DNA of 64,000 bases from Liolophura sinensis. Lineage: Eukaryota; Mollusca; Polyplacophora; Chitonida; Chitonidae. This document shows, piece after piece, positions 14,901 through 64,000 of the stretch. Below the pieces are notes generated by a model, which saw only the letters and a program-made list of their open reading frames with translations, was not told where the DNA came from and ran no database searches. Each line of letters opens with the position of its first letter. Within the stretch, counting starts at the first letter, position 1. The translations under genes were made by a program, and so were the position numbers. The stretch is taken from contig NC_088295.1 of assembly GCF_032854445.1 (NCBI RefSeq), forward strand, positions 37,745,385-37,809,384, written 5' to 3'.

Positions 14901-17900
14901 CCTCTGGCCCAGGGGTATGAGGCCCCGCCCTTCCCCTTCCAGAGGAGAGATGTGAATGCAGCAGGGATAAGGCAGACACAACAGGCCGCCCAGGCCCCTC
15001 AACAACAACAACAACAACAGAGGAAAGCCCCACACACCTACCAGGTCAGACTTACTTGTTTTATTTCTGTACTGATGTTATGTGTGGTTTGTTTGTTCAC
15101 TACACTTTGATTAGTACCTGAACAACACACTTACATAGGGTACATGTATTTGAGGCTTTTGATGTCATTATCATACCTGATGTAAAAGACCAGGAGTGTG
15201 ATTTGCACGCTTAAATTCCTTCTCCCCAGACTTAGGATTTTGCCAGGTGTGTTTTACAAGTCTTTCCCTCGGGCTCTGTCCGGTTTCCTCCCACGATAAT
15301 GCTGGCTGCTGTAGTATAAGTGGAATATTCTTGAGTACAACGTATAACCCCAATCAAAGAAATAATTAATCAATCACTTAAAGAATATTATGGTATACAT
15401 ATGATGTTCATAGAATATGATGATTTCTGAGCATAAAATGCTTTTGATAAGAAGGAGGAAATGACAATGATTAGCGCATTTGTATACAGGTATAATGTTT
15501 GTTACTGTGCTCGTGTTTACAGACGCAGGCTGTAAGTGGCTTCCAAACAACAACAACACCAAGTGTCAGCTCTTATTACAACCCTACCCAGTACACAAAC
15601 ATGAATGGAGGTGTGTCGTCAGCCTCTGTGTACAACCCTACGGTGTCCTCTTACTCAGACAGCAGTGCTTCCTCCTCTGCAGGATATTCAGCTAAAGGTA
15701 ACAACAACAACTCCCTAATGGCTGCTGTTTACTTTGAATGCAGTTGGGGCCTCCGTGGCTCAGTCGGTTAGCGCGCTAGCGCAGCGTAATGACCCAGGAG
15801 CCTCTCACCAATGCGGTCGCTGTGAGTTCAAGTCCAGCTCATGCTGGCTTCCTCTCCGGCCGTAAGTGGGAAGGTCTGCCAGCAACCTGCGGATGGTCGT
15901 GGGTTTCCCCCGGGCTGTGCCCGGTTTCCACCCACCATAATGCTGGCCGCCTTCGTATAAGTGAAATATTCTTGAGTGCGGTGTAAAACACCAATCAAAT
16001 AAATAAATAAAACAAATTGAATGCAGCTGGAGGTTGAAGTCACAATTCATCTGAAACTATATTTTTAATTGGTGAAGCTTAGTCCTACCTTTTGTATTTG
16101 GCAATACTCTTTATTTTAGTAATGAATAAATTTTTCTGTCAGGTCATTGAAAACTTGGTGTTAGCCAGCCAACATTGCTGAACAGTTTTTGTCTCCCAAT
16201 TTTACGACTGAAATTATCACATGACAAGCGTGACAAAAGTTAACATTGCAGAGATAGGAGATGGACTTCTAAATTTATAAAACTTGTCTAGGATGAACAC
16301 ACATTCTGTTAATTTCTGGTGAACGCACTGGTTGAAAAACAGTCAGCGATTTGCCTCTCATCAGCATATTGTCCGCATCCTTCATATGCATATATAGGTA
16401 TTTAAAAAAATAAAGCTTGCCGGTAGAGAAATTTTTTTTTCCTTTAATTTTGGCCAATGAAATGGATAGGGCTTTTAAAAGAAATAACCATGATAGCAAT
16501 ACAAAAAATGAAGAAATTCCGTTTAAAGCCACACAAAAAATTCTAGAGTAGGACCCTTTTTTGGAGGGTACGTCTGGTTCATCCCAGTGAACATATTTTT
16601 TTGGTGATGGCCTGAACTTCCTCTTTACAGGTGGCCTGGGTCATCGTTACCCGTCCTACCCTCAGTCTGCAGCCCAGTACGGGATAGACACATACTCTCC
16701 ACAGCAGGGTTACAACCAAACCAGTCAAGCGCAGACAGGCTACAACTCAACCAGTCAAGGGCAGACAGGCTACAACCAGCAGACACCTTATTCTCAACAA
16801 TCTGCCTTCTACAAGTGAGTCAAACCATGATGTGCTTCAGTAAAAACGTCACATGTTTTGAGTGGGAAAAACTTGTTTATTGAGGAATGTTTAAATAATA
16901 CTTAGTATGGAAAAAAAGTAAGAAAATAGACTTGGGAACTAAAAGATGCTACAACATATGTTTGAATGATGAGTAAACATTTAAAGTATTTGATTTCAAA
17001 TGTTAAACTTCAAGGGATACAGAGTCACCACTGGCTCCTGTTAGAGATGAGAAAGACCAGACTGAGCTGAATTTTAAGTGCTGTGTTTCTTATTCAAGCT
17101 TGACCAAAGTAGAAGGATTGAACTCGGGAAATCCTATCTCCATTGTCAGCCAATCAGCAGCTATTCTGTGTGCCCATTAGCAGAAGTTTTATTATGTCAA
17201 TTAATGTGTAAATAAATACCTGTCTGTTTTCTCTTCCTCAGTCCAAGTGGTTATAATGCCCCTGTCAGCTTGCCCAATGTCAATAGTTACACACAGAACC
17301 AGACCCCAGGTGAGCCCATTAGTAAACATGCACAATTGATCTGGGCCCGCTTCCACAAATGAATCATACACAACTTTTTGAGACAATAAAACTGCACATC
17401 TTTGTAAATTGAGTCGAAAATTACTAAGTACCAGTTTATGTAAGGCAAAAAATTTGTACTTGCTGTAATTCTTCAACCTTTTCCAATGTTTGCAAGCTGT
17501 TTATTCAAGGATATTTTAAAAGCATTATTCAGTGTTAACTGATAAAACTATACTTTTTGTGAAGCCCTGAAATTGGCTAATCCAACCATTGTTGTTTTGT
17601 TCCAAAAATCAAATTAAAAATGTGCATAAATTGCACTGAAAGTTGCCCTTTCATGTGCAGAATGGTTGAGGAATTAGGGTAACACTGTTTTAGGGTGATG
17701 ATAAATATTTACAACAGGATCAAGCTGATTGTAATTTTTGATTGTAAATCACAGCTATTGTAGCTTACACTCCATTGTGCAAGAAGGTTTCCAGCGGTGT
17801 TAGTGATTTGCAATCAACTTAGGCAAACGATCCCTTTGTCTAAGTGGACCCAAAGAAATAATATCCAGCTTAACTAGTATTTAAGCTCATAACATGTATG

Positions 17901-20462
17901 GGATACTCTTTTCTGATTATATGCAGACTTTCGTACACATATTGAGATGATATCTTTGATACATTGATGTTGAGAGACCATTGTAAATATTTTTGAGCAC
18001 TGTGTAAAACTCCAATCAAATAAATCAAATCAATTTATCCATTATTGTCCATACCGAGCTGTGTTAAACTTCATACTCACTGAGCTAAGGACACAAAAAC
18101 ATGATATTTGAGAAGATGTAATGTTGAAAAAGCTTTGTAATCATTGTTAAAACATTTTTTATTATCAGTAGTGCAGCCAAGCTCTGATCCTCTGTTTTGT
18201 AACTATTCAGGAGGGCCATACAGTCAAGCAAACAGTGCTCCGTTACGGCCTGCTTACCAGGATGTGAAACCAGTGTCAGCCTGGAATGATCCTCCCATAG
18301 TGGGATCTAAAAAGGTAAGGCAACAATTTCATTTTATGTTTTGTTATGTTTTTGATGAGCCAACACAAAAGAATTAAAAAGTAATGTCTGAAGCCTGCCT
18401 TTTTATCTTGACCCTTTTTGTTTTGTAAGAAAGTAAGAACATTGGAAGCCTTCAATACCCAAATGTTACCCTATTATTTTAACAGGCTGCCCAATATGAG
18501 GCACCGAACCCCATTACAAATCCCATCTTTGGATCAAATCAGCCTCAGGCCCCAGAGCAAGGCCCGCCTGGAGCACCAAACTACTCACAGTTCTACAACC
18601 CAGCAGAGCACCAGCCAGCACCGCAGGTAGGTGGAAGTACACCTGCAATCATCAGTACACAAATTCTTCTGTGAAAATACAAACCCTTCTCGAATACAGC
18701 AAATGACTCAAAATTTCACTCACAACTCTAAAGAAGACTTTTCCTGATGCTAAGATCTAGTGATCTAGTGATCTTAGAAAGTGGTTTTGAGGTTTGTTTT
18801 AAAGGTAGGGTGGCATTCTGATGGAAAGTTTCAACCATTCAAGTATTTTATGACATTTATTTGCCATTATTTTTTCGTTCGTAATTTTAGGTCATTTATT
18901 GTCTCCATATAATTTGACTGAGAGCCTAAATGTTTAGAATTTTCCAGGTTTTGCTCATGGTTAATTGTGTGCAATTGTGATCTCCACCTGTGGAGATCTG
19001 TGTAGTTTTGCAAACTATGATACACGGCAAATATGGAAGCAGTGCAAAATTTCCTATCCACAGGCTTGAGCAAGCTTGCATGTGTTCTGGTTTTAAACTA
19101 GATTAAACTTCTGTTTTTCAGCCTGCCAAGCCAGTAGAACCTCCCAAGCCTGTAGAGAAGGGACCTATCCCACAAGAACATGTTGTTTTGAAAGAAATAT
19201 TTGATGGATTAGTTAATGGTTGTATGAACTCAGCTACAAATGCGGTAAGCGTTTGTCAGATATGCACTATGTGTACCACATCTTTTCTTCCCATTTTGTG
19301 GTGTGCAGATGTGTAACTGCTACCCTTTGATTTATATTTTGTTTTTATTGCTGGTTTAAAGGTTCCATTAGCCTACACCATAACTCATTAAATTTATCCA
19401 AGCTACTCTTTGTGTACAACATGAATGCATTTACAGAAGATCCGCATATGATTGTTCTTGGTGGTGTACAGTAAATAGTATTAGTAAATGTATTAGTGTG
19501 TTTGAATACTTTTCTGTTTCTTTTTTATTAATAATAAGAGTGCAAAATTCATAAGTTTTGAAGGACAGAACTCAGAGGCTTTTTATGTCTATGATATTGG
19601 CAGCTTTTCTATTGGATACAAAATTACAAACTCATGTGAACTTCATCATATGATTTTTGCCTTTTTATTTATTTTTAGCAAGTGAAAAGAAAACTAGAAG
19701 ATGTTATAAGGAAGCTAGAAATTTTATATGACAGACTAAGGGAAAGTTCAGTAAGTATCAATGTTTTTTGCTTTAGTTTGGATTTGTAATATAAAGCAAG
19801 ATATTGGTGGGGTTTTTCCTTGCCTTTTAATCATATAATGGTCTTAAGCTGTGCTAGCGATGAAGATATTTTGTTTTCATATTTCAGTACGCTGTTTTAG
19901 ATGCATGTGCAAGCAGTTTTAATTGTTTACACTGGAAGTAAATGCATATAAAAACAGTTAACTGTTGGCACTAGTAAACATTGAAAACTTCATGAAGATG
20001 CATTTACTTTTTTGTCAGTAACTTTTTGTGAAATTTCATTGAAGTTATCCTATATACATGCAGGTATATATTGACCGTCATGAATGTCAACCCCTGAAAA
20101 CCTAGCAGTTTTCTACTTTCTACATTTTGCTGTTTAATACAGGCTGGAGGTGTAAATGCACAAAGCTTGCACATCGGGATTTAACACTTGCCTTCTGCAG
20201 TTATCTACATGCAGACTGAAGGCCTGAACACACACAGCTTATATGTGTATAACTTTTGCCTTTTCTTTCTCAGTTATCCCAGAATGTGACGTTGGGTCTT
20301 CACCAGATTATCCAGTCTGTACAACAGGGGGACTACAACACTGGACTGGCTATCTACACTCAGATGATCTCACAGGGCAACTTCTCCGAGATCAGCAGTT
20401 TTATGCCAGCATTGAAGGTGCTTCTCCAAACATCCGCGCATTTACAAGTCTATGTACAGTAA
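2902..20462 (+). CDS. SEC31A: Protein transport protein Sec31 (COPII outer-coat subunit), complete, 26 coding exons
   Basis: Sec31 pairs with Sec13 to build the outer cage of COPII vesicles that leave the endoplasmic reticulum, and it stimulates Sar1 GTPase through Sec23. Coding exons: 2902-3014, 3365-3454, 3962-4163, 4594-4689, 5866-6003, 6855-6997, 7399-7510, 7907-8059, 9400-9534, 9749-10048, 10506-10595, 10963-11022, 11385-11526, 12540-12718, 13092-13218, 13611-13759, 14159-14329, 14856-15044, 15523-15697, 16631-16814, 17242-17309, 18211-18314, 18486-18626, 19122-19244, 19679-19750, 20274-20462. All introns are GT-AG and the exons join to 1214 codons, against about 1220 in human SEC31A. 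Residues 1-350 form the WD40 propeller ([36 protein letters not shown]). [19 protein letters not shown] (from about 381) is the blade lent to Sec13. About 400-800 is the alpha-solenoid ([20 protein letters not shown]). About 820-1090 is Pro/Gln/Tyr-rich and holds WNDPP (W1030, N1031), the Sec23/Sar1-contacting motif. The C-terminal helical domain ends at 1214. The start ATG opens [16 protein letters not shown], matching the family N-terminus. Confidence 0.96.
8042..9056 (+). repeat. 30-bp minisatellite seeded by the exon/intron boundary of SEC31
   Basis: The unit core is CTCCAGCCCAGTAATAGGGT, and the full period of 30 bp recurs with substitutions through most of 8216-9056. The last 24 bases of the SEC31 exon ending at 8059 plus the first 6 intron bases match the consensus at 28 of 30 positions, so the exon end is itself a unit. 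Each unit carries a donor-like AGG/GTAGGT. Two units carry an inserted GTTAAGCCATAATCATTCAT SINE tail (8411-8441 and 8811-8841). The segment 8361-8570 recurs at 8761-8970, a shift of exactly 400 bp. Confidence 0.92.
8107..8190 (-). repeat. SINE family A fragment (minus)
   Basis: It reads as the reverse complement of the family A 3' half: a diverged form of the gTAAAACACCAAT end, the GAATATT block and the CATAATGCTGGCC block. It sits between the first two minisatellite units and the main array in the SEC31 intron. Confidence 0.6.
9066..9203 (+). repeat. SINE family A fragment (plus)
   Basis: Body and tail of family A (CAACCTGCGGATGGT, CCTCCCACCATAATGCTG, AAAACACCAATCAAAT) lie directly against the 3' end of the 30-bp array. 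The tRNA-like head is missing. Confidence 0.75.
10352..10408 (+). repeat. SINE family B tail fragment
   Basis: AAATTGTTAAGTACGACGTT followed by AAACCACAAGCACTCAC matches the 3' end of the intact family B element at 23519-23872, read on its own strand. It lies in a SEC31 intron. Confidence 0.6.
11637..12072. mobile_element. Fold-back element with ~135-bp inverted arms in a SEC31 intron
   Basis: The left arm (about 11637-11771) and right arm (about 11940-12072) are inverted copies. For example, GGTATATCAAGGATTAACGT on the left meets TTAATCCTTGATATACCAC on the right, and AGGAGTCAACCAGATTTTT meets AAAAATCTGGTTGACTCCT. About 170 bases of unrelated loop separate them. The whole unit sits within the intron 11527-12539. 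It resembles a fold-back MITE. No transposase frame lies inside. Confidence 0.8.
14667..14777 (+). repeat. SINE family A 3' fragment
   Basis: GGTCGTGGGTTTCC, CCTCCCACGATAAT and the TAAGTGAAATATTTTTGAG to ATCAAATAAAAC end identify a 5'-truncated, diverged copy inside a SEC31 intron. Confidence 0.7.
15255..15378 (+). repeat. SINE family A 3' fragment
   Basis: GGCTCTGTCCGGTTTCCTCC, TAATGCTGGCTGCTGTAGTA and TGGAATATTCTTGAGTAC match family A. The copy is 5'-truncated and ends in AATCAAAGAAATAATTAAT. Confidence 0.7.
15744..16016 (+). mobile_element. Full-length tRNA-derived SINE, family A, with target-site duplication
   Basis: The element begins GGGGCCTCCGTGGCTCAGTC after two junction bases. It has a pol III A box (TGGCTCAGTCGG) and B box (GTTCAAGTCC), a conserved body, and an AATCAAATAAATAAATAAAA tail. 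The 10-bp sequence TTGAATGCAG flanks it perfectly at 15734-15743 and 16017-16026. It inserted in a SEC31 intron in the sense orientation. Confidence 0.92.
16711..16770 (+). repeat. In-frame 30-nt coding duplication in SEC31
   Basis: Two adjacent 30-nt units (16711-16740 and 16741-16770) encode [10 protein letters not shown] and [10 protein letters not shown], followed by a partial third unit (YNQQT). They lie in the disordered Pro/Gln/Tyr-rich linker, where length change is tolerated. Confidence 0.8.
17458..17695 (+). mobile_element. Interspersed MITE-like repeat, copy 1
   Basis: About 230 bp resembles 50653-50885 in direct orientation, for example GTTTATTCAAGGATATT against GTTTATTCAAGCATATT and AAAATGTGCATAAATTGCA against AAAATGTGCACAAATTACA. 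The ends are imperfect inverted repeats: TGTAATTCTTCAACC at the start, and CCTAATTCCTCAACC on the reverse strand at the end. It lies in a SEC31 intron. Confidence 0.7.
17990..18032 (+). repeat. SINE family A tail remnant
   Basis: TTTTTGAGCACTGTGTAAAA followed by CTCCAATCAAATAAATC is the 3' end of family A only. The rest of the element is gone or unrecognisable. Confidence 0.6.
18169..18210 (+). other. Alternative in-frame 3' splice region of SEC31
   Basis: Two acceptors 42 nt apart (TTTTTTATTATCAG ending at 18168, and TGTAACTATTCAG ending at 18210) both fit the incoming phase 1 without a stop. The upstream site would add 14 residues, [14 protein letters not shown], before GGPYSQ. Sequence alone does not say which site is used. 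Confidence 0.6.
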
Positions 20463-28070: not shown

Positions 28071-29270
28071 TTACGTTTCTGTCTGTGACGCCGGAAGCGA
28101 AGTGTTTTCCGCGGGGACCACAGCGTTTCGAGACGGTTCGACCATGGTCTCGTTCAGCAATGGCTGGGCTTTGAGGCCGAACAATCGCCGGAGATTATAC
28201 CGAAACCTGGCTCCTGAGGACGAAAACACATATAGGAAAAAGTTAACGGCGAAATTTATTTGGTAGAAGAAGAAGAAAAATGCTCTGACCCACTTCAGTT
28301 TAATTTTTACAATTCTGTTGTCGACATAATCCGGATCGGTAACCACCGATGAGTTCACCTTGGCGTTCCAGAAAAGCTCGATTGTTTGGATTACACCTAG
28401 AGGAAACACTAATAGAAGGTAGGCAAAGGAAACTGTAAGAAGGAGGCGAGTTGCTTTAGCGTCCGTTCTGGAGGTTGTTGTTGTCATTGTCTCCCTTTTG
28501 GCTTGGTGGATTTTGATTGCTCGAATAATGGCGATGTTGAACGTCATGATAATGATTGTTGGCAGCCAGGTATTGAAGGCTACGTAGAAATAAACGATTC
28601 CAGGTATCCTAGCGCGATCTGTCTGGCAGCCTTTGTACCCGAACACCGAATCCCCTTCAAAACCCGTGACGAAAATCTTATGACAAGAGAATATCAGAAC
28701 AGCCATGGAGACGCAGCCGATGATCAACAGCGTCTTGACTGTGGTGAATAGTTTTGCTTTCAGCGGGAACTTGACGATGATGAACCGCTCTATGGTGAAG
28801 GCCACGATGGTCCAGACGGAAAGCAGGTTAAAAACTTCCACCAGAACTCCATGAAATTTGCACAAGAACTGGCTATCCATGAAGTTCTGGTTTGCCCCTG
28901 GATTTTGCCCACGAATAACGCCGATCATAAAGTTTAACAGAAGAGCTAACGAGTCGTAAATGGCTAACACCGACAGAAACAGGCTAGAGGCCGAACGTCG
29001 CATGTTCTTTTGAAGTAAGACGACAAATGACACAGCGTTTAAAACGACGCCAATTGCTACGATCACTGACGTCCCGTAATGCAGAAGGAATCTGACAAAT
29101 TCTATGAACGGCAAAAATTGTGAGGTGAAAGCTTCGATGTGACACGTTGCTTGAGCTTTTAGAATGTCCAGCTGCCTTAGGGTTTCATTGCTACTGACGT
29201 CGTTTTTCAAATCGTCCAGGCCTACTTGAATTTTGAGAAGTTCTTTACATACAAGCAGCGATGTGTTCAT
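28071..29270 (-). CDS. Rhodopsin-class (class A) G protein-coupled receptor, orphan, peptide-receptor-like
   Basis: A single-exon frame of 399 residues encodes seven hydrophobic spans: about residues 65-86, 93-117, 138-162, 177-199, 224-250, 275-297 and 329-350. C137 (before TM3) and C215 (extracellular loop 2) form the usual disulfide pair. The TM3 end is ERF (161-163) in place of DRY. TM6 has FAYLLLVFPLG with no CWxP tryptophan, and TM7 has NFFLY in place of NPxxY. Loop 3 is short and basic. Potential N-glycosylation sites lie at N2 and N28. The architecture resembles invertebrate neuropeptide-type receptors, but the ligand cannot be inferred. I start at the ATG at 29270, because upstream in-frame codons reach a TGA with only a GTG between. 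A good acceptor (CTCTTTACTTCCGCAG) just upstream, with the exon starting at 29317, suggests a spliced 5' UTR. Confidence 0.88.
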   Translation of the reverse strand: MNTSLLVCKELLKIQVGLDDLKNDVSSNETLRQLDILKAQATCHIEAFTSQFLPFIEFVRFLLHYGTSVIVAIGVVLNAVSFVVLLQKNMRRSASSLFLSVLAIYDSLALLLNFMIGVIRGQNPGANQNFMDSQFLCKFHGVLVEVFNLLSVWTIVAFTIERFIIVKFPLKAKLFTTVKTLLIIGCVSMAVLIFSCHKIFVTGFEGDSVFGYKGCQTDRARIPGIVYFYVAFNTWLPTIIIMTFNIAIIRAIKIHQAKRETMTTTTSRTDAKATRLLLTVSFAYLLLVFPLGVIQTIELFWNAKVNSSVVTDPDYVDNRIVKIKLKWVRAFFFFFYQINFAVNFFLYVFSSSGARFRYNLRRLFGLKAQPLLNETMVEPSRNAVVPAENTSLPASQTET

Positions 29271-46904: not shown

Positions 46905-47360
46905 CTTTAAAATGTCCTACACTTGGTTCTAGACCGAAGTATGCAGTAAGCATATCGTTAGTCAAAATCACACAGAATGTCCTACACTTAGACCATACTG
47001 ATGGAATGCTTTACTATATCAGTAAGAAAATAATTAATCAAAATCACAGGGAATGTCCTACACCTGGTTACAGACTAATGGAATGCTTTACTATATCAGT
47101 ACAAATCGTTAGTCATAATCATGCAGAATGCCCAACAATACCAGTAAGCAAATCGCTAGTCAAGTTCACACAGAATGTCTTACACTTGGTCACAGACTGA
47201 TGAAAGGCTTTATGATATCAGTAAGCAAATCGTCGGTCATAATCACGCAGAATGTCCAACACTTAGCTCCAGGCTGATGTTTAAGCTTACCTTCACCAGT
47301 TAACATATCGTTAGTCATCTACTCAAGATGTTCTACGCTTGGTTGCAGACAAGCCTATAT
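46905..47360 (+). repeat. Tandem repeat of about 76 bp, ~6 diverged units
   Basis: Units share TAGTCAAAATCACACAGAAT, GTCCTACACTTGGT and CTATATCAGTAAGCAAATCG. One unit (about 47130-47178) is internally deleted to about 47 bp. The 46889-47200 open frame is a by-product of the repeat. Confidence 0.8.
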
Positions 47361-47531: not shown

Positions 47532-50500
47532 TTATATTTCATAGTTTCGAAATCTTCTCAAGGATTCACTTGGTGTGTCTCTCTGCCACAGAATGTTGCC
47601 TGGAAAGTATTAAAAGGTAGAAATCAAGGTAAACAGACTTGTTCATCGGTGTCCACTAAATCATAATAACACAAGGTGAAATAAAGATTAAACACATTTA
47701 TTTGTACCGGTACTACAAAAGTGGTCGTGAAATGTTTCTCGAACTCAATAAAATTACACAGCGATAGTGACTTTCGGTGGGAAGTCAGTCGAAGCTGAAA
47801 AAGAATTTAGTTTTAAAGTTCGAGTTTATAAGATAAATCTGAATAAGCCTACGTGAATGAATTTTATGGAAACTGGTGGTCACGTGAGTGATATGTAAAG
47901 GTACATTAAATCTATTCAAACTAAAACATACATTATTATGAATGTTATCTTTTTACCCTGTGTAATCGTTTGAGCCGCATCTTCGCATTGGATTGATCAG
48001 AAGTGCTTCCATCTTGAACATCTGGGCGATTGGTGGTGGTTCCTTGCCGGCCTCAAGCATTGGGTCCGTCTGTTTCCTGACACCCCCAGTGCATTGACTG
48101 TTAATAAAGAAACAGTGAGTTATCTTGTATGTGTCTCGCAATACCAAATCCACGCCAGTCATACAGAGGTCTTAAAGTTTTAGTGACGCGGTTAGCTAAA
48201 CAACAATCTAACAACAATATTCACGTGATCTCTCAGTGTAAAAAAAATGGAGCATGGATATCTCAACCCGATATACTTCAGTTTACCTTATGTTAAAATA
48301 CTGGGGATTTTTTTTTAAAATCATATTCTCTGCCTATAGTGAAATCAAACTTTCTGTATTTACCAAGTTTAGCTTAAATTATTGTCTTTCAGTAAATATA
48401 AGACTCACACCTGAAATATTCATAGCGTTAAACTGATTCTAAAGTTTGATAAAGTAACAATGCGATTCGCCTTATAAATTTTAGGAACTTTATTACCGAT
48501 TTTGAGCAGCACAGGCTAACGTATGACGTCCGTTTGTATTAGAACGCTCGTTTTCCGCCAACGTGAATTATATGTCCGTAGGTGACACGTGAGAAGATTC
48601 TTCAATAACTTGCCGATCATGAATTCGGAGTTTTATTCGGGATTTATGCCGGGCACTCCCGTTTCCTCTATCCATTACACTCACCACCATTGTCTAAGAT
48701 TAGGCCTATCTTTTCTTTTCCCTTTTGTTTACGCCGTACGATTTATCACTTGTACAATGGCAACCAATGTGCTCTGAGTCGAGAAATGCAAATAGCCCGA
48801 TATAAGCAAGTGATCTTTGACAAGTTAGTGGCTAGTGGTGAAGACTTCCATGTGTTTATGTCATACTGGAGGACGGTTAGTGGTCCCTAGAGAACTTTAT
48901 GTAAGACTTCACCAAATCACCGTCGACAGCTTCATCTATAGCCACCAAGACCGCCAAAACACCAGAAGTTGGGGATTTTGTCCGAGAATGATATTGAACT
49001 CACGTGTCGTTCGTGTGACCTTGCGATTGAAAGGCAAGCAACCTTAACCTCTTACCTGTACCCATTGCTAGCTAGCCTAACAGTAATGTTATCTTCATGA
49101 GGAATTCTCATAGATATGGATGGTCCAACGTCTCAAGAAGCATCTCATATAAACTTCGAAATTTCTTTAGGTATTCCTCAGGCAAAATACACACCAGCTC
49201 TGCCTAACTAAAGTCTTCACATTCTGCTTTCATTTTTTACAGTGTATGGTTTCCTAAACCACATAATTCGCGGCAGTGTCCATGAATTTTCACGTGAATA
49301 ATTCTTACAACGCACCTGTCTCGTTTGTACTTCAGCCGATTTACTTTAACACCTGACCGTAGTTGGAGTATCGATGGTCTGGTTTATCTCTAATACGTAT
49401 TAAGTTAGAGTCAGTGAAAGACTCAGGGTAAAGATAATAATGCACGGTGTTATTATGTATGCAGGCCTACAACGAATATATCCCCATAGTCGGCATGTAG
49501 GCATATAGGTAGGGATATGGGTCTTGTGGGAATCGCTCATTTCATTTCCAAATGCATGATTTACACAACTTGGTCTTGGATAACTAAATAAAACAAACAT
49601 ATAGGTTGAATGCCATTTTCAGAGACAATCTCACATTATTATTTATACGGCTTCTGACATAGTCAAGGGGAGATAACTCTCCGACATACACGACAGAAAG
49701 GCCGGATACCCACAAACCGAACGTCACTTTCAATTTATAGTGTTCACTGCAATTCTATTCCATTCTTTTAATCTTGGTATGATTGGTCAATGTAAAAAAA
49801 AAAAAAAAATTCCAAAAACTTCAAAAACATTTGACTAAACCACTTATGCAGGATGCAAAGCCAAGTTAATATTTCTGTATCATATTCCATAAATTTGATG
49901 ATAATAAGGGTAACAGAGCCATTTATGTACCGGGTATATGCACTTTGAGACACAACTTTAATATGCAAATAATCCACTCACAGATAATAATATCCTTTAT
50001 AATATGCATTATTAACAAGCAAATCAAAATAATAAATACCGCAATATTACTCTTTGGTAGCCTACTCTTAACTCCTTAGGACAATTAATACTTCAACAAA
50101 GTTTTAGCAAAATATCTCGGCCATACTCAAACTAATTAACTTGCCTCGCTAATGGTGAACATGATTACCTAAGGCAATACTGATGCAAAACACGGACATG
50201 CATTTGAACAAAACGAATTAAGCAAATTTTAATTAGAATGCTTGCCCTATTTAAATTACTATCACTGGAATGTAGGCCTTCAATAAGTTTAGTTTTTCTT
50301 GAAAGCTATATACTTTGTATCCTGCTAGCATAACCAAATAGAAACGCATGAATGAAGAGTAACATTAATCAAAAATGACCCATAAAAAAGACATACAAGA
50401 TACAGGTTAAACAGTAGGCTATAGTCCGACTGGGATGATCATTACCATGTGCACATTGTCCCTCAAACCTCTCCACTGTCGGTACGACATACATATCCCT

Positions 50501-51935
50501 GCTCTTCTCCACATGTCATATTTCTGTCTCTCATCTGGGTCACTCAGTACACACTTTGCTCTCTGAAGTCTTTCGAATCTGCCAGCTGCAAATCATAACA
50601 GAACTCAATATACTTGTCAGGAATGGTTCTTTCCCTCAGATTCAATGTTAAACTTACTGTAATATTTCAACCTTCTACCATGTCTGCACAGTGTTTATTC
50701 AAGCATATTGTCAAGGTATTATTCTGTGTATTCTGATAAAATTATACTTTCTGTGAAGCCTTGACACTGGCCAATCCAACCAATGTACTTCTGTCTCCAA
50801 AATCAAATCAAAAATGTGCACAAATTACATTGAAAGTTACTCTGTCATATGCAAATAGATTGAGGAATGAGGGTAGTTTTTGTACTAAATGAAGTTGATC
50901 AGAATTTAGGCATGCAAATAATTTTCCTCATATCACACATATAACATCATCAGGTTACAACCTATATACATGTGTATGTGCATTCATGAAACTAACATGT
51001 AATTAATCAACGTGTTAAAATGTATTAACTAGGTAAGAACTTCATATTTTATTAGCTTTTAAATGTTAGAAGACGCTAGTTACTTACATCCGCTTTGAAA
51101 AGATGTCACTGGCTAGGAAAAACTTACATTTTAGCAAGAAGCCATACAAATGCAATAATGTTACTGTGCACACATGCGTGCACAATCCTCAATTAGGTTT
51201 ATAGATTTGGGAATGACTTTATTGCTTCTTACCAGCAGCCTGGTCTCCTGGGTGTTTATCAGGGTGACAATGAAGCACTCGCATCTTGTATTCAGCATTG
51301 ATCTGTTCAATCTACAATATTTCAAAGATACAAATGCCAAATGTGTGTTCTAGAATAAACAAAATTAACACATTAATGATATTGACAATAAAATAAGAAA
51401 CATAATTATAAATGTGAGGGACTGCTTCTGTGGTCATGTTAGAGCAAGGAATCATCACTGGTTGGCCCGGTGTCAGAACATATAATTGATGAGGGTACCA
51501 CTGCTTTCCAACTTTCTTCAATGAATGATATGTATCCTTGTTTTTCAATTTACAATTCACCAATATTTAAAAAAAACTGAAACACTGATTATTCTATGCA
51601 GATGCTGAGACGAATATAACTGTTGTATCAAGGTAGCGCTATCACTATTAAATCCGAGGCTTAATTACTGGTCAATGACAGGTTTGTTCTGAATTAAATT
51701 TGGTAATGATCGAAATGCATGTATAAAGAACTCAATGTGAAATCTTCCCGAATGCTGCGCATTTGATAAACCTTGATATGCCGCGTAAATGAAGAGGAGC
51801 GCCATAATTATCATATCGTCTCACCGTACATGTACATTTAAATGCATTTACTTACTGTGGATCGCTCGTCACATCCTAAAATCGCATAAAAAATCATCAT
51901 CGTCCCGAACGCTCGTAGTTAAGAATCGAGTCCAT
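47532..51935 (-). CDS. DNAJC12: DNAJC12 ortholog (J-domain co-chaperone), frame broken by single-base excesses
   Basis: In vertebrates DNAJC12 assists Hsc70 in folding aromatic amino acid hydroxylases. Five minus-strand exons with GT-AG junctions are visible: 51856-51935, 51233-51311, 50446-50585, 47957-48097, 47532-47599. They encode MDSILNY; YAILGCDERST; EYKMRVLHCHPDKHPGD with the catalytic HPD; LSDPDERQKYDMWRR; SMHW then VRKQTDPMLEAGKE; and the family C-terminus DTPSESLRRFRNYEI. Exon 1 has 80 nt where 78 would match human's 26 codons. The excess is most simply one base in the A6 run (51888-51893) and one in the C3 run (51904-51906). Exon 4 needs one base fewer in C5 (48083-48087) and one fewer at C3 (47956-47958). 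Removing four bases gives 504 nt, an in-frame 167-residue protein (human 198). As written, translation could begin at an in-frame ATG at 51900 and stop at 48053-48055, giving a J-domain-only product of about 102 residues. Pseudogene, allele and assembly error all remain open. Confidence 0.82.
50653..50885 (+). mobile_element. Interspersed MITE-like repeat, copy 2
   Basis: This is the direct-orientation counterpart of 17458-17695 (GTTTATTCAAGCATATTGTC, GCCAATCCAACCAATGT, AAAATGTGCACAAATTACA). It lies in the DNAJC12 intron between 50586 and 51232, antisense to that gene. Confidence 0.7.
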
Positions 51936-52550: not shown

Positions 52551-55500
52551 ATGGCGGACGCAGTTTCCGCTGGTAAGTCACGTGGGTAAACACAGATGCA
52601 TGGACTGGGATTGTCAAGAAGGAAATTCTTTCCACAAATGTTTAATAAGTTATATGGTGACAGTGTAAATTCTATTTATACAATGCTTTGGTGAGTTTGA
52701 AAATGTTGACCACATTTCTAAGTATTTTCCGTGTGGGCTTGCTTGTTTTGACTTGAACACAATTGAAAGTTGAAAGTAGGTCTACATAGTGCTCCGTCAA
52801 CACTCTTCTGCATCGGGTTATCTTATGCTGCTATAGTGCTATACTGCGGTGTCTAGTTGGAAGACTGATCGAGGTGGTAAGAATCTAACTACACTTTCTC
52901 TCAGGCATGACGGTTAACTGCTAAAATCAACCGTGTTTACTAGTATATCTCTTCAGAGCTTGCACTTTGTTACACCAACTTAGCCATAGTGTTTGATATT
53001 TGTCACCTCTGAAGAGGCTATTTTGGACGCATGGGCTTGTATCAAAAGACAGAGTCTGCAACCTGCGGATGGTCATGAGTTTCTGCCAGTCTTTGCCAGC
53101 TTTCCTCTCACCATGATGCTGGCCTCCATAGTATAAGTGAAATATTCTTGACTATGGTGTAAAAGACCAATCAAATAAATAAATAATTAAATCAGAAGAC
53201 AGAAGAGTACATTAAAGTAGCCTCATGTACAAGTTCTGTGTACACACTAGTAAGTAAAAGGACAAGTAACGAAGATAAAACCTCTCATTTTCCCTCTCAC
53301 ATTCCAGGTGACCTAGATTTGAATTCAGCAAGGAATGATGTTACTGATGATTCAGAGGATGGGGAAGCAGGTATGTGAAACTTACAGTATCAATGTATAG
53401 ATTGACATTCCATTTGGGTATTTTTCTGTTTTACGTTAAGGACAAAGAACAGGAAAGTCAAAGCTACGGAATATGCATTTCATAATGTGCAGTTGTCACA
53501 AAAGTCTTTGCATTCTTTCCCATGAAACATGTAACAGTGTGTTAGATATCACTTGTAGCATACATAATAAAATTATACCATTTGACGACAGGTCAAATAA
53601 TTTTACGCCAGATATTTCTGTTCATGTGAAATGGACCATGTCCTAATATTTTTATATTAAAAATTGTATGTCAGCAATTTATGAAAAGTGGTTGCCATGA
53701 TAGACATAAATACATTTTAATATACTCAAGATATCATTTCTGATAAAGAAGTTTTGTTAATCATGTGACAAAATATTTTATAATGTATGGCTAATCCAAA
53801 TTTGTTGACATGTTTTATGTAAGCAGTCCACAGAGATGGCAGACCCTGGAAATGACTCGGACAGTGATATCAGTAATATTTCAGGAGGCAGTGAAATGGC
53901 ATGGAGGCCTATGGCAGGTATGATAAATGACCTTAAATTTCGCCCATAGACTTAGAAAGTATATCCCATGAATCATTGTGTTGATTGCGGCTCTTACTGA
54001 CAAGGCATCACGAGAGGAGGCATCGGGGGTGGTGAGGATTATATGGACAGTTCCCGAATGTAATAAACAAGCTCACGCTTCACTGGGCAGTCAGTCTATT
54101 AGGCTCCCACCACCAAAAGTTCATGTTTTAATCATGATGAATTTAGTACTTACGCTTATTTCACAACGCGCGCACATTGATTGTTTCATGATCGCCCTTC
54201 TATGATGAATGAGAATTCTGAGAAAACTCCCTGGAGACTGCATGAGCATGACCACCCAATACCTTTACACATGTGGAGTGATATGTCAAATATCTTAAAA
54301 TGCAGAACTCTTCATTTACAGAGCTAGAACAGAACTTAGCACCCCTTGAATCCTTACTTGCAAACTACCATCAGATGATTTCGAACTGCATTTACAGAGA
54401 CAACTTACAATCAGCAGGGCTTGAAATATCCACATGTCTATTATACCTCTCGATGGCAGGAATTTTGCCGACGAAAGGCAAACAAAATAATCTTACCTGT
54501 CCACTGGCGATGCAAATCTACATGCCGGTAATCATAAAACATGCACTTTATTTCGATATATAGCCAGACAGTGTTTTTGCGAACGATATGTCAACAACAT
54601 GAATGTTACTTCATGGGTAATTCAAGTTTTCAGAAACCTAGCGTTGAGTATTTTTTTTTGTGTTTATTGAGAGGCTCCCAATTTCACAACACCAGAACTG
54701 AAAGGTAAGTCTTCTTCAGGAGGAGGACAATCCCGATGGTAACGAAACAAAATGTGCACATTGAGTGACATATTTCATTCAAATTATACGGGAGGTTGGT
54801 GACAGCTATTTGTCAGTGAAATCCATTTGTACTTGAAGTACATTTGTACAAATATTTGGTGCTTAACGAGGGCTCTGAACAGACAAACATTCACAAGATA
54901 ATGCTGCTGCGTGACTTCCACGTTACCCGAACCATCGTACGTTCACCTTTGTGAGGTCTGCAGTGTACATTGTTGTACATTGTAGCATTTGTACATGGCT
55001 GTTTGGCATGGCCATGGATCGAGGCAGTGTTTGCAATTTATAGGTTTCTAATAGTCTGACTTCATATTTCCTTGGGTTTAATTCATGAGTACAATTATAA
55101 ATGCACATGGGCTGGTCGGGAGACCTGTACTTGCTGCCAGTGACTTGACCCCACGTGGTGCGGATTAGAGACCATAGCTGCCATACAGAGTAAGGGAACA
55201 GGCAGAGGGATAATCACCCACTTCTCTCATCTTGTTGCTATCTCAGCCCGTGGGAAAGTTTACTACAGAAACCAACAAGTGGAACTTTACATCATTTACC
55301 ATACTGTTAATTTGTCAATTTTTTGTTCTGTTCCAATTTTGAAGACATATGCTACCAAAAGCACTGGTGATATGCTACCAAAAAGCACTGGTGATAGAAA
55401 TGTAAAGCTGTTATGTCACACATTATTGGGTAATGCGCAGTTTTAAAATACAGTATTAGGACAACATTTATTATTTTTGCAATATTTAACAACCAAGAAC

Positions 55501-58500
55501 ATAATTTAGAAGATTAATCTAATCCTGTTTAATCAGTTTATATCTACCACGTAATGCTAAATATTGTAAATTGACCCCACTATGCTGTGAAGCAATGATG
55601 TCACATTTCGCGTGGTCCTCATGTCATAACTTATCTTGAAACTTGCATATTCACAGACATTAATATATTCTCCACATTGTGTAAAATACATGTATGAAAC
55701 TGCCTTAACTCTCCATTGGAGATTGTATATTACAATTAGAACTGTGAAAAGTGCACTAACTCTCCATTCAGTTCAGTTTTACTGCCAGGGTTAAATAGTC
55801 TTGTACAGTCTGACTGATGACTCTGCTTCCATAGCAGGTCCGATGGCCTGGGTCCAGGAACAGATGATGGCAGGTAAAGATCCGCGGGTTATCCTCAGGA
55901 GGATTATCCCAGATCCGGATATTATACCTGACCATCTAGAAGATTTCATCCTGTGGAAAATTGTGGCCAGTATTGTCAGTGAACCTCCTCGTAGGAAGAA
56001 ACTGAAACACATCAACACCGTAGATGATGTTGTGACGTTGCTAAAAACCTCCAAAAAGATCATGGTGCTGACGGGTGCTGGGGTAAGTAGAATAGAATGT
56101 TCTCTATTGGCTCTATATTACAATTAGAACTGTGAAAAATTCACATGTGTGCCATGCCCAGGGCAAGGACATAGTCACATGTTACAAGACTTTTACCATA
56201 TACTAGTATCCTCACTATTGTTGTGATTGGTCAGGCATCCAAGGCTGTCATAGAGCATTAGTGGTGTTAGTGTGAAATTATTTGGAAGGAAATAGAACTG
56301 CGATGAAGTTCCTTTTGCTAAGAGCAGGGTGTGGATTATTTTGGTTAAGGAATTATGCACATGCTGAATTTAACTGTCTTATACACATAATTTTGGATGG
56401 AAATAAAACCACATACATATATAATCTTGAAAAAATACACTACATTTTTTACAGTACTTTCTGAATAATTACAGACGCGTTTTCAGAAACAGTATACCAT
56501 AGTGCCTTGCGAGGGCTGTTGTCTGAAGTGGTACACTCTTTCTGGGGAGTAGGGGATCACCAGTATTTGATTAGTGACAAGCTGTCCTCTCCTCCGTCAT
56601 GCCTCAGAGAGCCTCGCCGGCTTGGCAAGAGGGTTAGAAATACACTGTCGTTTTTTTAAAGATTCACGTTTTCCATTGAACTTTTGTAAGAGGCAGAGAT
56701 GGGCTCAGTGATAAATGTCAAGATGTAAAATAACAAAATAAAAAATGCCGTCCATGTGGCTGGACTAAGCACATGTTTGTAATTACTGGTACTGTCCCAG
56801 CAAACAGTACTTTGAAGGATGAAACCCTGCCTCTGCCTGTATATATTTCCACCCACATTGGCTCAACATTCGGACTCTTCGATTAGTATTTGAAATTGCT
56901 AGCGAATAACCACCTTTGAAGTCTTCGGTTACATTTTCTTTCACTTTTGAGGCCATTACTATCACAACAACCTGTGATGTGGGTTAGCTCCACAATCCTT
57001 ACATCTATACGTCAGAACAGACATTCGTATACCAGCCGTCAATCAGTAAGGATGTTCCAGGCCAATAATCGCAAGGCCAATTCTCAAAATGATGTATAAC
57101 CTAGCTGAAAGTTTGGGGTGGCAGCCAAAAGGACATACACATTGTCTCATAAACAGCACTAGAATTTAACTTGTGGTATATGTTTTTTTGACTTACTGCA
57201 AGGAAAATACTAACATGCAGCACTTTGTAAATGCCAAATGCAGTAAGAAGAACAAATTTTGGACAGAAATCTGTGTAACAAATAACAAAACTAATGTCTG
57301 AGTGTTTGTAACCCCTAGTGATTTTACTAGGTGGACTCAACTGATACTGAGAGCCAGGCACTTGGAGACTGTTCCATTCACCAGAGGAATGATTGACCAG
57401 TTCAAGATAAGCAGTGCTTTGAGATTCTTTCACCGAGTAGTCGCCACCCCTCTCATACTTTTAATAGACTGGCTGAAACTTGAACTTTCCATCAAGACGA
57501 AGCATATGCTGGTGTTGGAGATCCCTGCTGATCTCTTCGCGATGAATTAAAAGCTTTTATTGCCACATTAAAAATAAAACCTGGTTCAGAAGTTTTTTTT
57601 CACAGTAGCTAATCGTTCATTCACCAATATATGTACCTGCTGGCTTGTGGATAATTTGGGAAAGTTGCTTAAAAATATATTATCGTCTGGATACATACAA
57701 GCTGTGAATTTCTATATATTTTAATCACGCTTTTGTTATGCGTTTATCTAGTAATAATTTCTATTGCCTGTAACTGTAATGATTGCTCTGCATGCAGTTT
57801 TGGTTTTTGTAATCCATATGCATTTTGTATATTTTGTCACACTAACGTTCAACTAAAGAGTTAGCCAAGATACTTCAGTTTAATTGAAGTCAGGATGAAC
57901 TGAGTCAGGTTTCCAAGGCAGGGATGTTGAGGTATGTAGTAATGTATTTACTGATACCGTGTCATCCTGTGCATCATTTGTAACTATGGAGCATCACCTT
58001 TAGAGTGATTAGTAGATAAATACACATGAGATTTTTGCAATCCTTCTCTTTACTTTGGATATTTATTTATACACAGAACATACATGTATGGTCTGGAAAT
58101 CACTCGTGTCCCTGCTGGTGCCAGATGAAATCTACATGATTTGTATTCTCACCCGGGAACTGGGAAATGAGTCCTTTCATCTTTTCAGTTGGATCTAACC
58201 ACCTGAATTTTGTTTTCAGGTGGTTAGTCTTGCGAAGCCTTTCACAGGAACACATATATACTCAGACATCAATATTCTCTCCAGGTCATCTTGATATATA
58301 TAATATATATATAATGAAAGCGGACTGGTTTAGCTAATTTAGTGACATAATATACCTGAATGTACATGCACTATTAACATTTTCTTGAAACACCCATGGT
58401 AACATGCTGCAAAGTATCTTTTTTCAATCAGTCTAAAAAGGGTGTAGCCCCCACCCCTCCCTTTTCTCATGGAGACTCAGCTGTCAGATTTATGTCATGT

Positions 58501-61500
58501 TCCTGCCATAGTATACACACGGTCAGTAATAAATGGGAAGTCAACCTACAAATTGGAAGTGTGTACTACAGGTGCTTTATCCACATTTGTAAGGCAGCAT
58601 TGTTAATTCAATGATCAAACGCCAATCATATCCATGTTCCATTCCTACATGTACCCCAAACACAAGTAGCGAGGAAGACAAACGATTGGTAGATTCAAGA
58701 CAATCCTGCGATATATTACATAATGCAGTAGGGTGTTCCCGTGTAAATAATGCTATATAACCATCGACTTGAAATACCGGATAGCATAGTTTGTAAAATG
58801 CAGCCGGGAAAACGGTCTGGTTAGAGTTTTGGGTAGGCAGATTGCAAAGAGATATTTTTACTATGTTGATGTTTTGGTATCAGTATTTTTGTCTGTTTTT
58901 TTTTTTTTTTATAAACAAGCATGTATACTGAAAAATGACGTCGTGAGTTGCTGTGGACAAGCTGTTAGGAAAGCCTGGCCTTATAGGCCATGGTAGGCCT
59001 ATACTCCAACTGGGCAAGCTGGGATAGCTGGCATTCTGATATCACCCACTGTGAGCAATTCACGGGAAATTCCTCTGATCTACCCGCTCATTCCAGTGTG
59101 TCTCCTATTAGCTAGTGTCTGTAATTATTGAGAAAGTACGGTCGTTTATTAGGACAGTAAGACCATGATCTGGTGGTGAGGATGTACCATATGCTAAGTT
59201 GATTGTAACTACCCAGGATACATATAGCTTTTAACATATATGTTTGTTGCCTTGGAAAAAGTTCCAGTCAATTGATTTATTTTTTTTTTTTTGATTTGTG
59301 TTTTACTAAAGAATATTTCATTTATATGACAGCAGCCAGCATTGTGGTGGCAGGAAACCAAGCAGAGCCCAAGGGAAACCCATGACCATCTGCGGCTTAC
59401 CTGTCAGATGTGATTGGAAATTTAATAGTAGAATGTGGTACTAACCTTTGTTTGACCTACCAATGTATCTATAATAGCCGTGCATTTGTTCTTTTTGTTG
59501 TATTGACAGGTATCGGTTTCATGTGGTATCCCAGACTTCCGATCCCGTAATGGCATTTATGCTCGTCTAGCAGTGGATTTCCCAGACCTGCCAGATCCCC
59601 AAGCCATGTTTGACATCAGCTACTTCAGACATGATCCGAGACCATTCTTCAAATTTGCTAAGGTGATTATTTCATTTGACAGTCATTAGAAAACACAGGA
59701 TAGTTTTCTTTTCAACTGGTCATAAATAATGCCAACTCAGTGTTAAATATGAATCTTCCGTCTTCCTCAATTCAGAATGAAAAATGAAGAAACAAACCCA
59801 CTTTTTGAAATTGCGAAGGAAGCTAATGGCTGCAAAAGCATTATTATCTCGATATTGCCATTTGTATGTTGGGATATTTTTGTCTTCTCGGATTAAAAGA
59901 CATTATTATGGAAACTGGTGTATTTTCTCACCAGATTTCAGACCTACAAGTTTACTTACTTCCTCACTAATTATATTGTTTACAATTTTTGTAGGAAATC
60001 TACCCTGGGCAATTTGAACCATCTCGCTGTCATAAGTTTATCAGCTTGCTTGATCGCAAGGGGAAACTACTGCGTAACTACACACAAAACATTGACACAT
60101 TGGAACAGGTTGCTGGGATTAAAAATGTTATCCAATGTCATGGTAAGGCAGTCCACAGAGAGACTGAACTGTACTGTTTGTACACCACAGACCTGTTCCA
60201 TTTTAAGAGTTACCCTAATTGACTTAAAAATTCAGTCACAAAAGAGCATTTTTGTAGGCAAATAAATGTTATGAGATTTAGTCTGATGCTAAATTTACAT
60301 TTTCTCACTAGCATATCATCCTACCTTCCAAACATCTCTCAAAGCACATTTCTAAAATCAATATAATTCCCAGAATCTTGTAAAAATGAGCAACTTAAAA
60401 TGAAATTTTGAGTCATATAGGGTAATGAAAGACTCATATCGCATACACTTACAGAAATGACCTCCAAGATCATTTACACAAGAGTAATGTGAAAGTGTCA
60501 TTAATTTGGGAGGTTGGAACGTCTAACATTTGTACACAATTGACTGTCATTTTTCTGTGCCTTGAATAACCATACTCTAATCTGTTTTTTAGGTTCCTTT
60601 GCAACAGCAACTTGCATGACCTGTCGATACAAAGTGGATGCAGAAGCAGTCAGAAAGGACATATTTGATCAGGTAAGCTCAGATCAGGACAGAATGGTAT
60701 GTTACTAAATATTACGAAAAACTCCATTTAGTTGTTTAATTCATGATCTTGTCTGTGGCCTTTTGTTCTAAATCATATTGCTTTCTCTGAGAATGTATGG
60801 CAAAATTCTCTAGCTGTTTCCCCCACTCTGTATATGTAATAATTCTTACCTTTTAGGTGATCCCTCATTGTCCGCGGTGCAGCCCCTCTTCCACGGAAGC
60901 GGTCATGAAGCCAGACATTGTGTTTTTCGGGGAGAGTTTACCTGAAGAGTTCCACACCCAGATGGCAGCTGACAAAGATGTGTGTGACCTGCTCATTGTG
61001 GTTGGCTCCTCACTCAAAGTCAGACCAGTGGCACTTATACCCAGTAAGATGTCTTTGTCGTTGTCGCGTTTAATAGCTCAATCAAACACGTTTATGTATA
61101 TACATTCATTTTGTATAGAGAACAGAGAGAGTAACAGAGTGATGTTGGCTCGTACAAGAAAGGATAGTGAGCTAATTCAACTTTAATGTATGACAGGAGG
61201 AGGAATAGTATTTCATCAGTGGATTATCACCTTCTGAAGTTAGTACAGTTTTAAGCCAGGTATAGATCAACTGGGAGCAACTTGGTTATTGGCAACTGCA
61301 AGCATAGTTTTTAGTTGATTTTTTAGTTGATCTACGCGGGCTTGCGATTTCTGAGAGTTGAACACATTCTACTTTTCTGTGACTGAAAGAAGTTGTACCC
61401 AGTTCCATCGTTCTGTTTGTGCTTGTGTCCAGTTGGTTAGAGTTGCTCACGATCGCAAGTTTTTGTCAAACATAACTGTTACTGTGTTGAGTTGGTCCCA

Positions 61501-64000
61501 GTTGCTTAAGACTGTAATTGGCATTTATCTCTTCAGCTTGACAGCTGTCAAACTCAAAATTGTTATTGTGGGATAGATTAAACAAGCCAGATTACCACTG
61601 CCTGGATATGTTTGTACTACAAGACTGTCATTGTTCAGAAAAGACGAGTTAGTTGATTGAAGGCAGTTAACATTGTATTGAAGTGGAAAGAAAATGGAAC
61701 TACATGTTTTATTTTTATTGAGATGTTGATTATGCGAGGTTTCAGTTTGCCAACTTCATGAACAATATGTGGAAAAAGGCAGCTTGCTGTTTTCACAAGT
61801 TGGCGGTATTTCCAATTTGTTTGGGGAGGGGGGTGGTGAGGTTGCGGAGGGTTCATCAGGGAAATGATGGAAATGGACTAAGAAGGATGGTCTTGTGTAG
61901 TTACGTTTCAAGTATATAGATTTTGGTGAAGTAGTACATCGGTAGATTCACTGCAGGCATCTGAGGCTTCTCTATGTGTACAACACAGATAGGAGGAAAC
62001 ATTGTTATACTTTTACAGATAATTTCGAGATTATTCCATGCCCAAGTGTGACATGCGACTGCAGTAGCAATGCAGGACACTGTAAAGTTACATACATGGC
62101 CTAAAAATTTACAAAATATGGACCAGATCTTGTCAGAAACGCCCTTTGATTACAGGGGACCCAATCGTAGTCGTATGAGATTTGCTAATTCAGCAATAAC
62201 TTCTAAAAGAATAGGCCGAAGGATGAGCCATATAATATCCCCTAAAAAGGCAAACATCGAGATTTTCATTCCTTAAATGCAGAAGTTGTTCAGCTACTTG
62301 TTTGTTTGAAACAGCAAGCTGTAGCATGAACTGTAGGGAGCCGCAAACCTTTGCCCTACAACGGCCATGCAACTACAGTTTGGCCCTCCAGCTCAGTTCA
62401 TACTTCACCTACAGGCCATTTTGCAAGCATGATACACCACAGCATGTCATACCTTGAAGCCCGTAAAGGGAACCAAGACAGATTTTAAACTGACATTTCT
62501 ATGTGTTACCAATCACTGTTTCCATTTAGTATGATTCAAACTTTATTTATTTTTGCCCGTGATACATTTTAAAATATAAAATATTACCTCAATTGTTAGT
62601 TTCACCAGTTTTGAGTGACAGACTGTTGTCATCAGTGCAATTCACAATTGGCTTGCCGGATTACATGGATCCTAGTGCCACAGCTGGTATCGCTCAACTT
62701 GGCTATAAAAATTTACAATCTGATAACTGCGAAAGCATGCCATATTCTTCACAGGCACTACCATAATTGGGTGGATGTCCAATTTGTGGACGGGCATTTG
62801 TGTCATCTACATGTACATGGCCAATATGTGAGCAAAAATCGGTCATCGTATCGCACAGTTACTATGCTGTATATACATTTTCCCCGCATCAAGTAGGCCT
62901 ACAACTCCGGTAGCCAATTTTCAAAATATTTTTGTTGTGAAACTGATTTACTTATATTACTTTCAGGGAGGTGTAGTGGTAGGTACATGTACGTAGGGTT
63001 AATTATAAGTAAAGTCACACGATAGCTTCTGGAAAACCACACAGCGAGTAGGCCTAATGTATGGATTCGGCTATGCTTTGCAGGGCTTTTCAAAACATAA
63101 TCCTGGCAGGTAATCACAGCATGACATCACCTGGCCAGGCCTCTGCGGTCGATAAGATAGGCAGAAGGTCCAACTTTAATATTTTTGGTTTAAATGGAAC
63201 AGGTTAACGTAATAGTTTTTTAAGTGCAGTTTACGGACAAACTTAGCACAAATATTGTGTTTAATGAACATTTATTGTGAAGATAAAGTCGTTTTGGTTC
63301 TACTTGAAAAAGGAAAAAATTATTCAAATTATACATTTTAAAATTACACTAGTTGTCACTAGGTTTATTTAGGGAAAGTAAAAGCTCCGGGTTACTGGGA
63401 TTGTATGGAAACGGGGAAACATTCATTTTGGCTCAATAATCCCATAAGGGAACTGAAAGCTGCTTAAATTTGTGACTTTTATCATAGTATCTTCAATATG
63501 TATGTTGTTTTTTTTTTGTCAGATTCTATACCTGCAGAAATCCCACAGGTCCTAATTAACAGAGAGCCGCTCCGTCACCTGAACTTTGATGTGGAATTGT
63601 TGGGAGACTGTGACGTGATCCTGGGAGAGTTGTGCCACCGGCTTGGTGGGGAATGGAGTGATCTTTTCACTGATTACACTCGCCTAGAGGAAGTGACTAA
63701 AGGGGAACTGTCTACACCAACTGTCAGTGATTCGGACAATGGAAAAGTTTCACTGGCATCATCATCTGACCCAAGCCAACAAGCTAGTTCTACCTCGGTC
63801 CAATCTTGTTCTACCACTGAGACCAACTCTGCTTTGAATAACGCTGAAATAAGCTGCATTTCAGAAATTAAATCTGAAGGCGATGTAGCGCCCTGTGACA
63901 CCAAAGCTTTGTGCTCCTCAGATGCCAAAGCCAAAGATAATGTCAGTACCATTCCCTGTCAAAGTGGAGCTTCTAATTTGCCAGATTCAAACGGGGGAAG
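52551..64000 (+). CDS. SIRT1: NAD-dependent protein deacetylase sirtuin-1, 3' end beyond the window
   Basis: SIRT1 removes acetyl groups from lysines of histones and transcription factors, using NAD+, mainly in the nucleus. Coding exons: 52551-52572, 53308-53370, 53834-53917, 55838-56082, 59510-59662, 59995-60142, 60593-60672, 60857-61043, 63523 to beyond 64000. All join in frame, giving at least 486 residues. Exons 2-3 are acidic ([20 protein letters not shown]). The Rossmann/NAD core starts at [16 protein letters not shown] (G136 onward), with TQNIDTLE, the catalytic His238 in QCHGSFAT, zinc cysteines 246, 249, 270 and 273, and [15 protein letters not shown]. The last exon carries LINREPL and LCHRLGGEW, then a Ser/Thr-rich tail still open at 64000. 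The N-terminus is much shorter than in human, where the core starts near residue 261. I chose the ATG at 52551 for its A at -3 and G at +4. In-frame ATGs at 52404 and 52539 could extend it. Confidence 0.95.
53052..53187 (+). repeat. SINE family A, 5'-truncated, in a SIRT1 intron
   Basis: CTGCAACCTGCGGATGGTCA, CATGATGCTGGCC, TAAGTGAAATATTCTTGA and AATCAAATAAATAAATAAT identify family A. AAAAGACAGAG before it and AGAAGACAGAAG after it may be an imperfect target-site duplication. Confidence 0.75.
53918..55837 (+). other. SIRT1 intron 3
   Basis: No exon or transposon is recognisable. A 23-bp unit (TATGCTACCAAAAGCACTGG...) is duplicated in tandem at 55348-55394, and a 25-bp sequence at 55726-55750 recurs after the next exon. 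The open frame at 54300-54563 has no recognisable domain. Confidence 0.5.
55726..56138 (+). repeat. 25-bp identical direct repeats flanking SIRT1 coding exon 4
   Basis: The sequence beginning TATATTACAATTAGAACTGT is identical over 25 bases at 55726-55750 and 56114-56138, with weaker similarity just upstream of each (CTCCATTGG, CTCTATTGG). The two copies bracket exon 4 (55838-56082). Confidence 0.8.
56083..59509 (+). other. SIRT1 intron 4
   Basis: This 3.4-kb intron separates GAG from [12 protein letters not shown]. It holds a T-rich tract near 58899, an AT microsatellite near 58300 and one SINE fragment. I see no further exon. The open frames at 57101-57433 and 57302-57550 match nothing I recognise. 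Confidence 0.5.
59297..59401 (-). repeat. SINE family A fragment (minus) in a SIRT1 intron
   Basis: AGAATATTTCATTTATATGA, CAGCCAGCATTGTGGTGG and CCATGACCATCTGCGG are the reverse complement of the family A 3' half, following a T-rich start at about 59279. Confidence 0.65.
61044..63522 (+). other. SIRT1 intron 8
   Basis: Apart from the inverted-repeat element at 61268-61504, I recognise nothing in these 2.5 kb. Frames at 62070-62276 and 62615-62896 lack conserved motifs. Confidence 0.5.
61268..61504. mobile_element. Small inverted-repeat element (MITE-like) in SIRT1 intron 8
   Basis: CAACTGGGAGCAACT at 61268-61282 is matched in inverted orientation by AGTTGGTCCCAGTTG at 61490-61504 (14 of 15). 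A second inverted pair, around CTTGCGAT, lies inside. No target-site duplication was identified. Confidence 0.45.

Follow-up and report, generated by a model that had tools for sequence, protein, structure and literature searches.

We suggest that the broken reading frame of the gene at positions 47532-51935 of the window (the whole 64,000-nt stretch of Liolophura sinensis contig NC_088295.1 analyzed here) reflects local errors in the consensus rather than biology, a reading in which we place roughly even confidence. The gene lies on the minus strand and is, judging by its sequence, an ordinary DNAJC12, the J-domain co-chaperone of aromatic amino acid hydroxylases. With exon borders and phases held fixed, its minimum is three frame changes, one in exon 1 and two in exon 4. 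In the mechanism that we propose, small indel errors in two patches of the assembly would break these two exons, and the animal's real DNAJC12 would be intact.

The assignment to DNAJC12 was examined at both ends of the protein. The J-domain pieces find their best solved-structure match in 2CTQ, the human DNAJC12 J domain (E 5.1e-27, versus 2.4e-10 for the second-best solved J domain, that of DNAJC5), they match Pfam DnaJ with 66.8 bits (cut-off 27.8), and exon 2 carries the HPD motif as HCHPDKHPG. The C-terminal heptapeptide, RFRNYEI, shares six of its seven residues with KFRNYEI, for which the excerpted text of PMC11926245 reports full conservation from human to fly; the same paper states that human DNAJC12 residues 176-198, taken in isolation, match the full-length protein in binding TH. 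When the C-terminal half was compared with the PDB, the only matches were three alphaRep proteins at E 0.018 or worse. The initial ATG, the HPD motif, the stop codon and the C-terminal motif are all in place. The window gene thus resembles known DNAJC12 (JDP1) in its J domain with HPD, its exon borders and phases, the lengths of exons 2 and 3 and the terminal FRNYEI; it differs in its broken frame in exons 1 and 4, in the replacement of Lys by Arg in the last heptapeptide, and in its shorter exon 4 (141 nt, versus 205 nt in human). Rfam and tRNA searches returned nothing, and a pattern search of viral contigs for relatives gave 15 matches, none of which was a relative.

The comparison with the human gene locates the problem. 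The variant names c.79-2A>G, c.158-2A>T and c.298-968_503-2603del, taken from the excerpted text of PMC5767785, give the human exon borders and imply lengths of 78, 79, 140 and 205 nt for exons 1-4, with a last intron of phase 1. The window exons measure 80, 79, 140, 141 and 68 nt, 508 nt in all, and each of the four introns that separate them has canonical GT and AG ends (8/8 splice dinucleotides), in agreement with the original prediction of intact splice sites. Set against the human lengths known from this excerpt, exons 2 and 3 agree exactly, exon 1 exceeds its counterpart by two nucleotides, and exon 4 is 0 modulo 3 where 1 modulo 3 is required; therefore, the break is in the sequence. 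By the borders implied in PMC5767785, intron positions and phases agree with human DNAJC12, exon 5 is entered in phase 1, and exons 1 and 4 begin and end where the human ones do despite the broken frame inside them. No single open frame runs from MDSILNY to FRNYEI through the ordinary DNAJC12 exons.

Table 1. Coordinates of DNAJC12, its frame-change sites and the neighboring genes, in window positions.
Feature	Positions	Strand	Remarks
DNAJC12 exon 1	51856..51935	-	80 nt (human 78); frame broken
Exon 1 interval in which one frame change suffices	51897..51920	-	from stops by frame
DNAJC12 exon 2	51233..51311	-	79 nt, as human; frame open; HPD motif
DNAJC12 exon 3	50446..50585	-	140 nt, as human; frame open
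DNAJC12 exon 4	47957..48097	-	141 nt; two or more frame changes
G5 run (C5 on plus strand), frame-change site	48083..48087	-	between Trp103 and Met112 equivalents
Interval confining the last exon 4 frame change	47957..48000	-	from stops by frame; donor G3 (47956-47958) at its end
DNAJC12 exon 5	47532..47599	-	frame open; ends in RFRNYEI and stop
SIRT1	52551..64000	+	head to head with DNAJC12; no frame break; extends past the window end
GPCR, rhodopsin-type, single exon	28074..29270	-	one open frame; Pfam 7tm_1
SEC31	2902..18302	+	2902-14329 and 16648-18302 checked; clean frames

In exon 1, the frame of the first ATG reads MDSILNYERSGR and meets a stop after 12 codons; the J-domain frame, FYAILGCDERST, lies two frames on. 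Counted in nucleotides from 0, the stops fall at 36, 39 and 57 in frame 0, at 64 in frame 1 and at 14 in frame 2. One change from frame 0 to frame 2 is enough for this exon, and either a 2-nt insertion or a 1-nt deletion would do. The G3 run lies inside the interval in which such a change suffices, and the T6 run lies just past it. Read with two single-base excesses (DDDD before FYAILG), exon 1 scores 115.8 bits against 2CTQ, versus 107 and 106 bits for the two one-event readings tried, and on this alignment score two excesses would be the better fit to human DNAJC12 than either of those readings. We note an arrangement resembling an overlapping upstream ORF at 51894-51900, where, within GATGATGAT, the TGA that closes the first-ATG frame shares bases with an in-frame ATG of the J-domain frame.

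Exon 4 has stops at nucleotide 42 in frame 0 and 98 in frame 2, and none in frame 1. Because the exon must exit in frame 2, it passes through frame 1 and hence contains at least two changes. For the earlier of these, the human protein offers landmarks: exon 4 begins at codon 100 in human (from the excerpt of PMC5767785), and excerpts of PMC7434608 and PMC11587022 supply the numbering of His102 and Met112, respectively. On this numbering, human His102 aligns with a His in the window, and human Met112 aligns with a Met only if the frame is moved by one base at the G5 run, which supports an event at 48083. The last event is confined to a stretch of about 44 nt (roughly 48000-47957), in which the donor is just one of the positions allowed. 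Codon-usage decoding places it at nucleotide 103 (~47994), away from the donor; the statistics of this decoding are weak, and with it the true frame of exon 2 is not top-scoring (2.61 vs 4.31).

The original prediction had been of four single-base excesses at four homopolymer runs. The runs are all where it had placed them (on the strand of the gene, T6 at 51888-51893, G3 at 51904-51906, G5 at 48083-48087, donor G3 at 47956-47958), and removing four nucleotides from the 508 nt of the five exons does give the 504 nt that it had named. The broken frame in exons 1 and 4 holds up as well, and the event at G5 is supported. The count, the +1 sign and the placement at the donor go beyond the data, as the stops and phases require only three events and fix their signs modulo 3 only; a reading with four single-base excesses gives the best fit, short of proof. 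The emphasis on homopolymers was likewise too strong, given signs known modulo 3, two runs of only three bases and no local excess of repeated bases. The observation as a whole stands in substance and is partly confirmed, with its exact count and places partly conjectural. Programmed frameshifting and RNA editing were considered and rejected, as we know of no nuclear animal gene that undergoes several shifts and nothing in this locus supports either.

The neighboring genes, which had also been described as intact, serve as a control, and the parts of them that were checked are clean. Anchor chaining, which replaced a gene-finder pass that over-predicted exons, found no break in SIRT1 (9 exons, 1,460 nt) or in SEC31 (2,340 nt in 16 exons and 369 nt in 3 exons, confirming 903 of the 1,214 codons originally claimed); because it could place a splice site as much as 60 nt away from an anchor, breaks near exon edges could be missed. 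The GPCR is one open frame of 399 codons. Within the first 404 residues of SIRT1, query residues 39-393 align to human SIRT1 with just one gap, of a single residue, the first 341 residues of SEC31 match human Sec31A (7SUL) over residues 1-340 with E 2.1e-148, and a 780-residue part of SEC31 contains WD40 and a Sec16-type helical domain. A raised break rate in other genes of the contig was not seen among the 5,366 coding nucleotides checked in SIRT1, SEC31 and the GPCR, which contain no frame break at all. Against this background, the probability that all events would fall in DNAJC12 by chance is 5.6e-5 for four events and 6.5e-4 for three, and a uniformly poor assembly is therefore unlikely.

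We also note that DNAJC12 and SIRT1 stand head to head, with their ATGs (51935 and 52551, the latter opening MADAV) 616 nt apart. Human chromosome 10 presumably has the same divergent neighbors, and on that human gene order the position beside SIRT1 may be the ancestral place of DNAJC12. The interval between the two may be an ancient shared promoter region. Among the literature matches listed, judged partly by title, none dealt with DNAJC12/SIRT1 gene order.

The choice among pseudogenization, a null allele and a locally poor consensus remains the three-way one originally set out. No nonsense substitution occurs in the frames read and none of the eight splice dinucleotides is lost; with only frame lesions seen, local consensus error is mildly favored over a true null or pseudogene. 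In the codons checked, 5.3% of substitutions would give a stop, and 8.8% would be disabling once splice sites and start are added. For indel/substitution ratios of 0.05, 0.1, 0.15, 0.2, 0.3 and 0.5, neutral decay would produce four frameshifts and no disabling substitution with P of 0.004, 0.029, 0.072, 0.124, 0.227 and 0.390, respectively, and three frameshifts with P of 0.011, 0.058, 0.122, 0.188, 0.305 and 0.471; the test mildly favors error and is weak, above all with three events only. The closeness of the J-domain pieces to human DNAJC12 (E 5e-27; Pfam DnaJ 66.8 bits) also speaks for error. Long-read errors are described, in the excerpted text of PMC12007338, as mainly homopolymer-associated indels, and the DNAJC12 breaks resemble such gene-fragmenting errors in being indels of single-base scale beside short runs in an otherwise complete gene. 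They differ in that the neighboring coding sequence checked here is clean, and in that the best reading here consists entirely of insertions, whereas in one bacterial long-read assembly of that paper the false indels were mostly deletions. Also against error, the breaks would have to be confined to two patches some 3.8 kb from each other, although exons 2 and 3, which lie between the patches, and the neighbors checked are clean, and there is no repeated-base excess around DNAJC12. A search within the window for repeats covering exon 1 or 4 found none at E 1e-2.

That same concentration of breaks in one gene beside clean neighbors is what a recently disabled DNAJC12, either a unitary pseudogene that has become fixed or a null allele that entered the assembly, would produce, and we regard such a lesion as a serious possibility that falls somewhat short of an even chance. 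The change from KFRNYEI to RFRNYEI, judged by the conservation in the PMC11926245 excerpt, is conservative but may be a sign that constraint has relaxed. Like unitary pseudogenes and null alleles, the window gene carries several frame changes and has a conserved neighbor; the differences are that it has acquired three or four frame changes without any nonsense or splice lesion, that its J domain is well preserved, and that it is known here from one assembled sequence. Among the papers that mention both DNAJC12 and pseudogenes, none describes a pseudogene of DNAJC12, judged by titles and the beginnings of abstracts. If the lesion were real, ordinary splicing from the internal ATG at 51900 would give a 102-residue product that ends early in exon 4, and that could be a J-domain-only protein without the client-binding C terminus. 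Its stop lies 96 nt ahead of the last junction, so nonsense-mediated decay would probably act on the disabled transcript. An intact retrocopy or duplicate at another place in the genome, with the window copy as its dead parent, is improbable: replacements of this kind are on record in animals, as for amphioxus SYCP1 in the excerpted PMC5803294, but the window holds no second DNAJC12 copy (E up to 10; best other match E 0.74).

An exon structure that keeps the frame open, named in the original prediction as what would remove the anomaly, does exist but is unconvincing. With exons 2 and 3 and the exon 1 donor fixed, a scan of ATGs from 150 nt upstream, mini-introns of at least 30 nt in exons 1 and 4, other exon 4 donors and other exon 5 acceptors gave 88 five-prime and 297 three-prime choices, or 26,136 combinations, 176 of which are open to the FRNYEI stop; with so many, an open structure is unsurprising. 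The top-scored one starts at 52053, uses a mini-intron and loses FYAIL. The next best, scored slightly lower, joins the ATG at 51900 through a 16-nt exon 4 (48082-48097) to exon 5 and would encode 115 residues, a J domain with the RFRNYEI end, no N-terminal tail and almost no linker. This protein needs no change to the sequence, retains the J domain from Pfam position 2 and keeps the client-binding end, which in the form of human residues 176-198 binds TH by itself (PMC11926245, excerpt). We nonetheless consider it quite unlikely to be the true gene. Its donor, GGT|GTCAGG, is weak (-2.1, versus +1.1 for the ordinary donor; among 3,734 minus-strand GT sites the median is -4.3, the 75th percentile -2.1 and the 90th 0.3), and it discards both the conserved MDSILNY start and the region whose shifted frame aligns with human Met112. 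That this lineage made DNAJC12 a minimal co-chaperone, its bare J domain joined near-directly to the hydroxylase-binding C terminus by removal of the disordered linker, would be more doubtful still.

These readings differ in their consequences. If the consensus is in error, automatic annotation would log a false gene loss, and the species would wrongly seem DNAJC12-negative. If the lesion is real, the animal has lost or cut down a co-chaperone that stabilizes the enzymes making dopamine and serotonin and degrading phenylalanine, and would be a natural counterpart to human DNAJC12 deficiency.

The window also contains several repeats. A 122-bp unit occurs twice just downstream of DNAJC12 (47016-47261), a 30-bp tandem array occupies part of a SEC31 intron (8210-9052), and a run of 17 G lies on the plus strand at 38183. 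The array at 40678-41653 consists of 18 copies of a 54-bp unit with 95% matches and lies within a 338-codon open frame, in which it encodes an 18-residue repeat.
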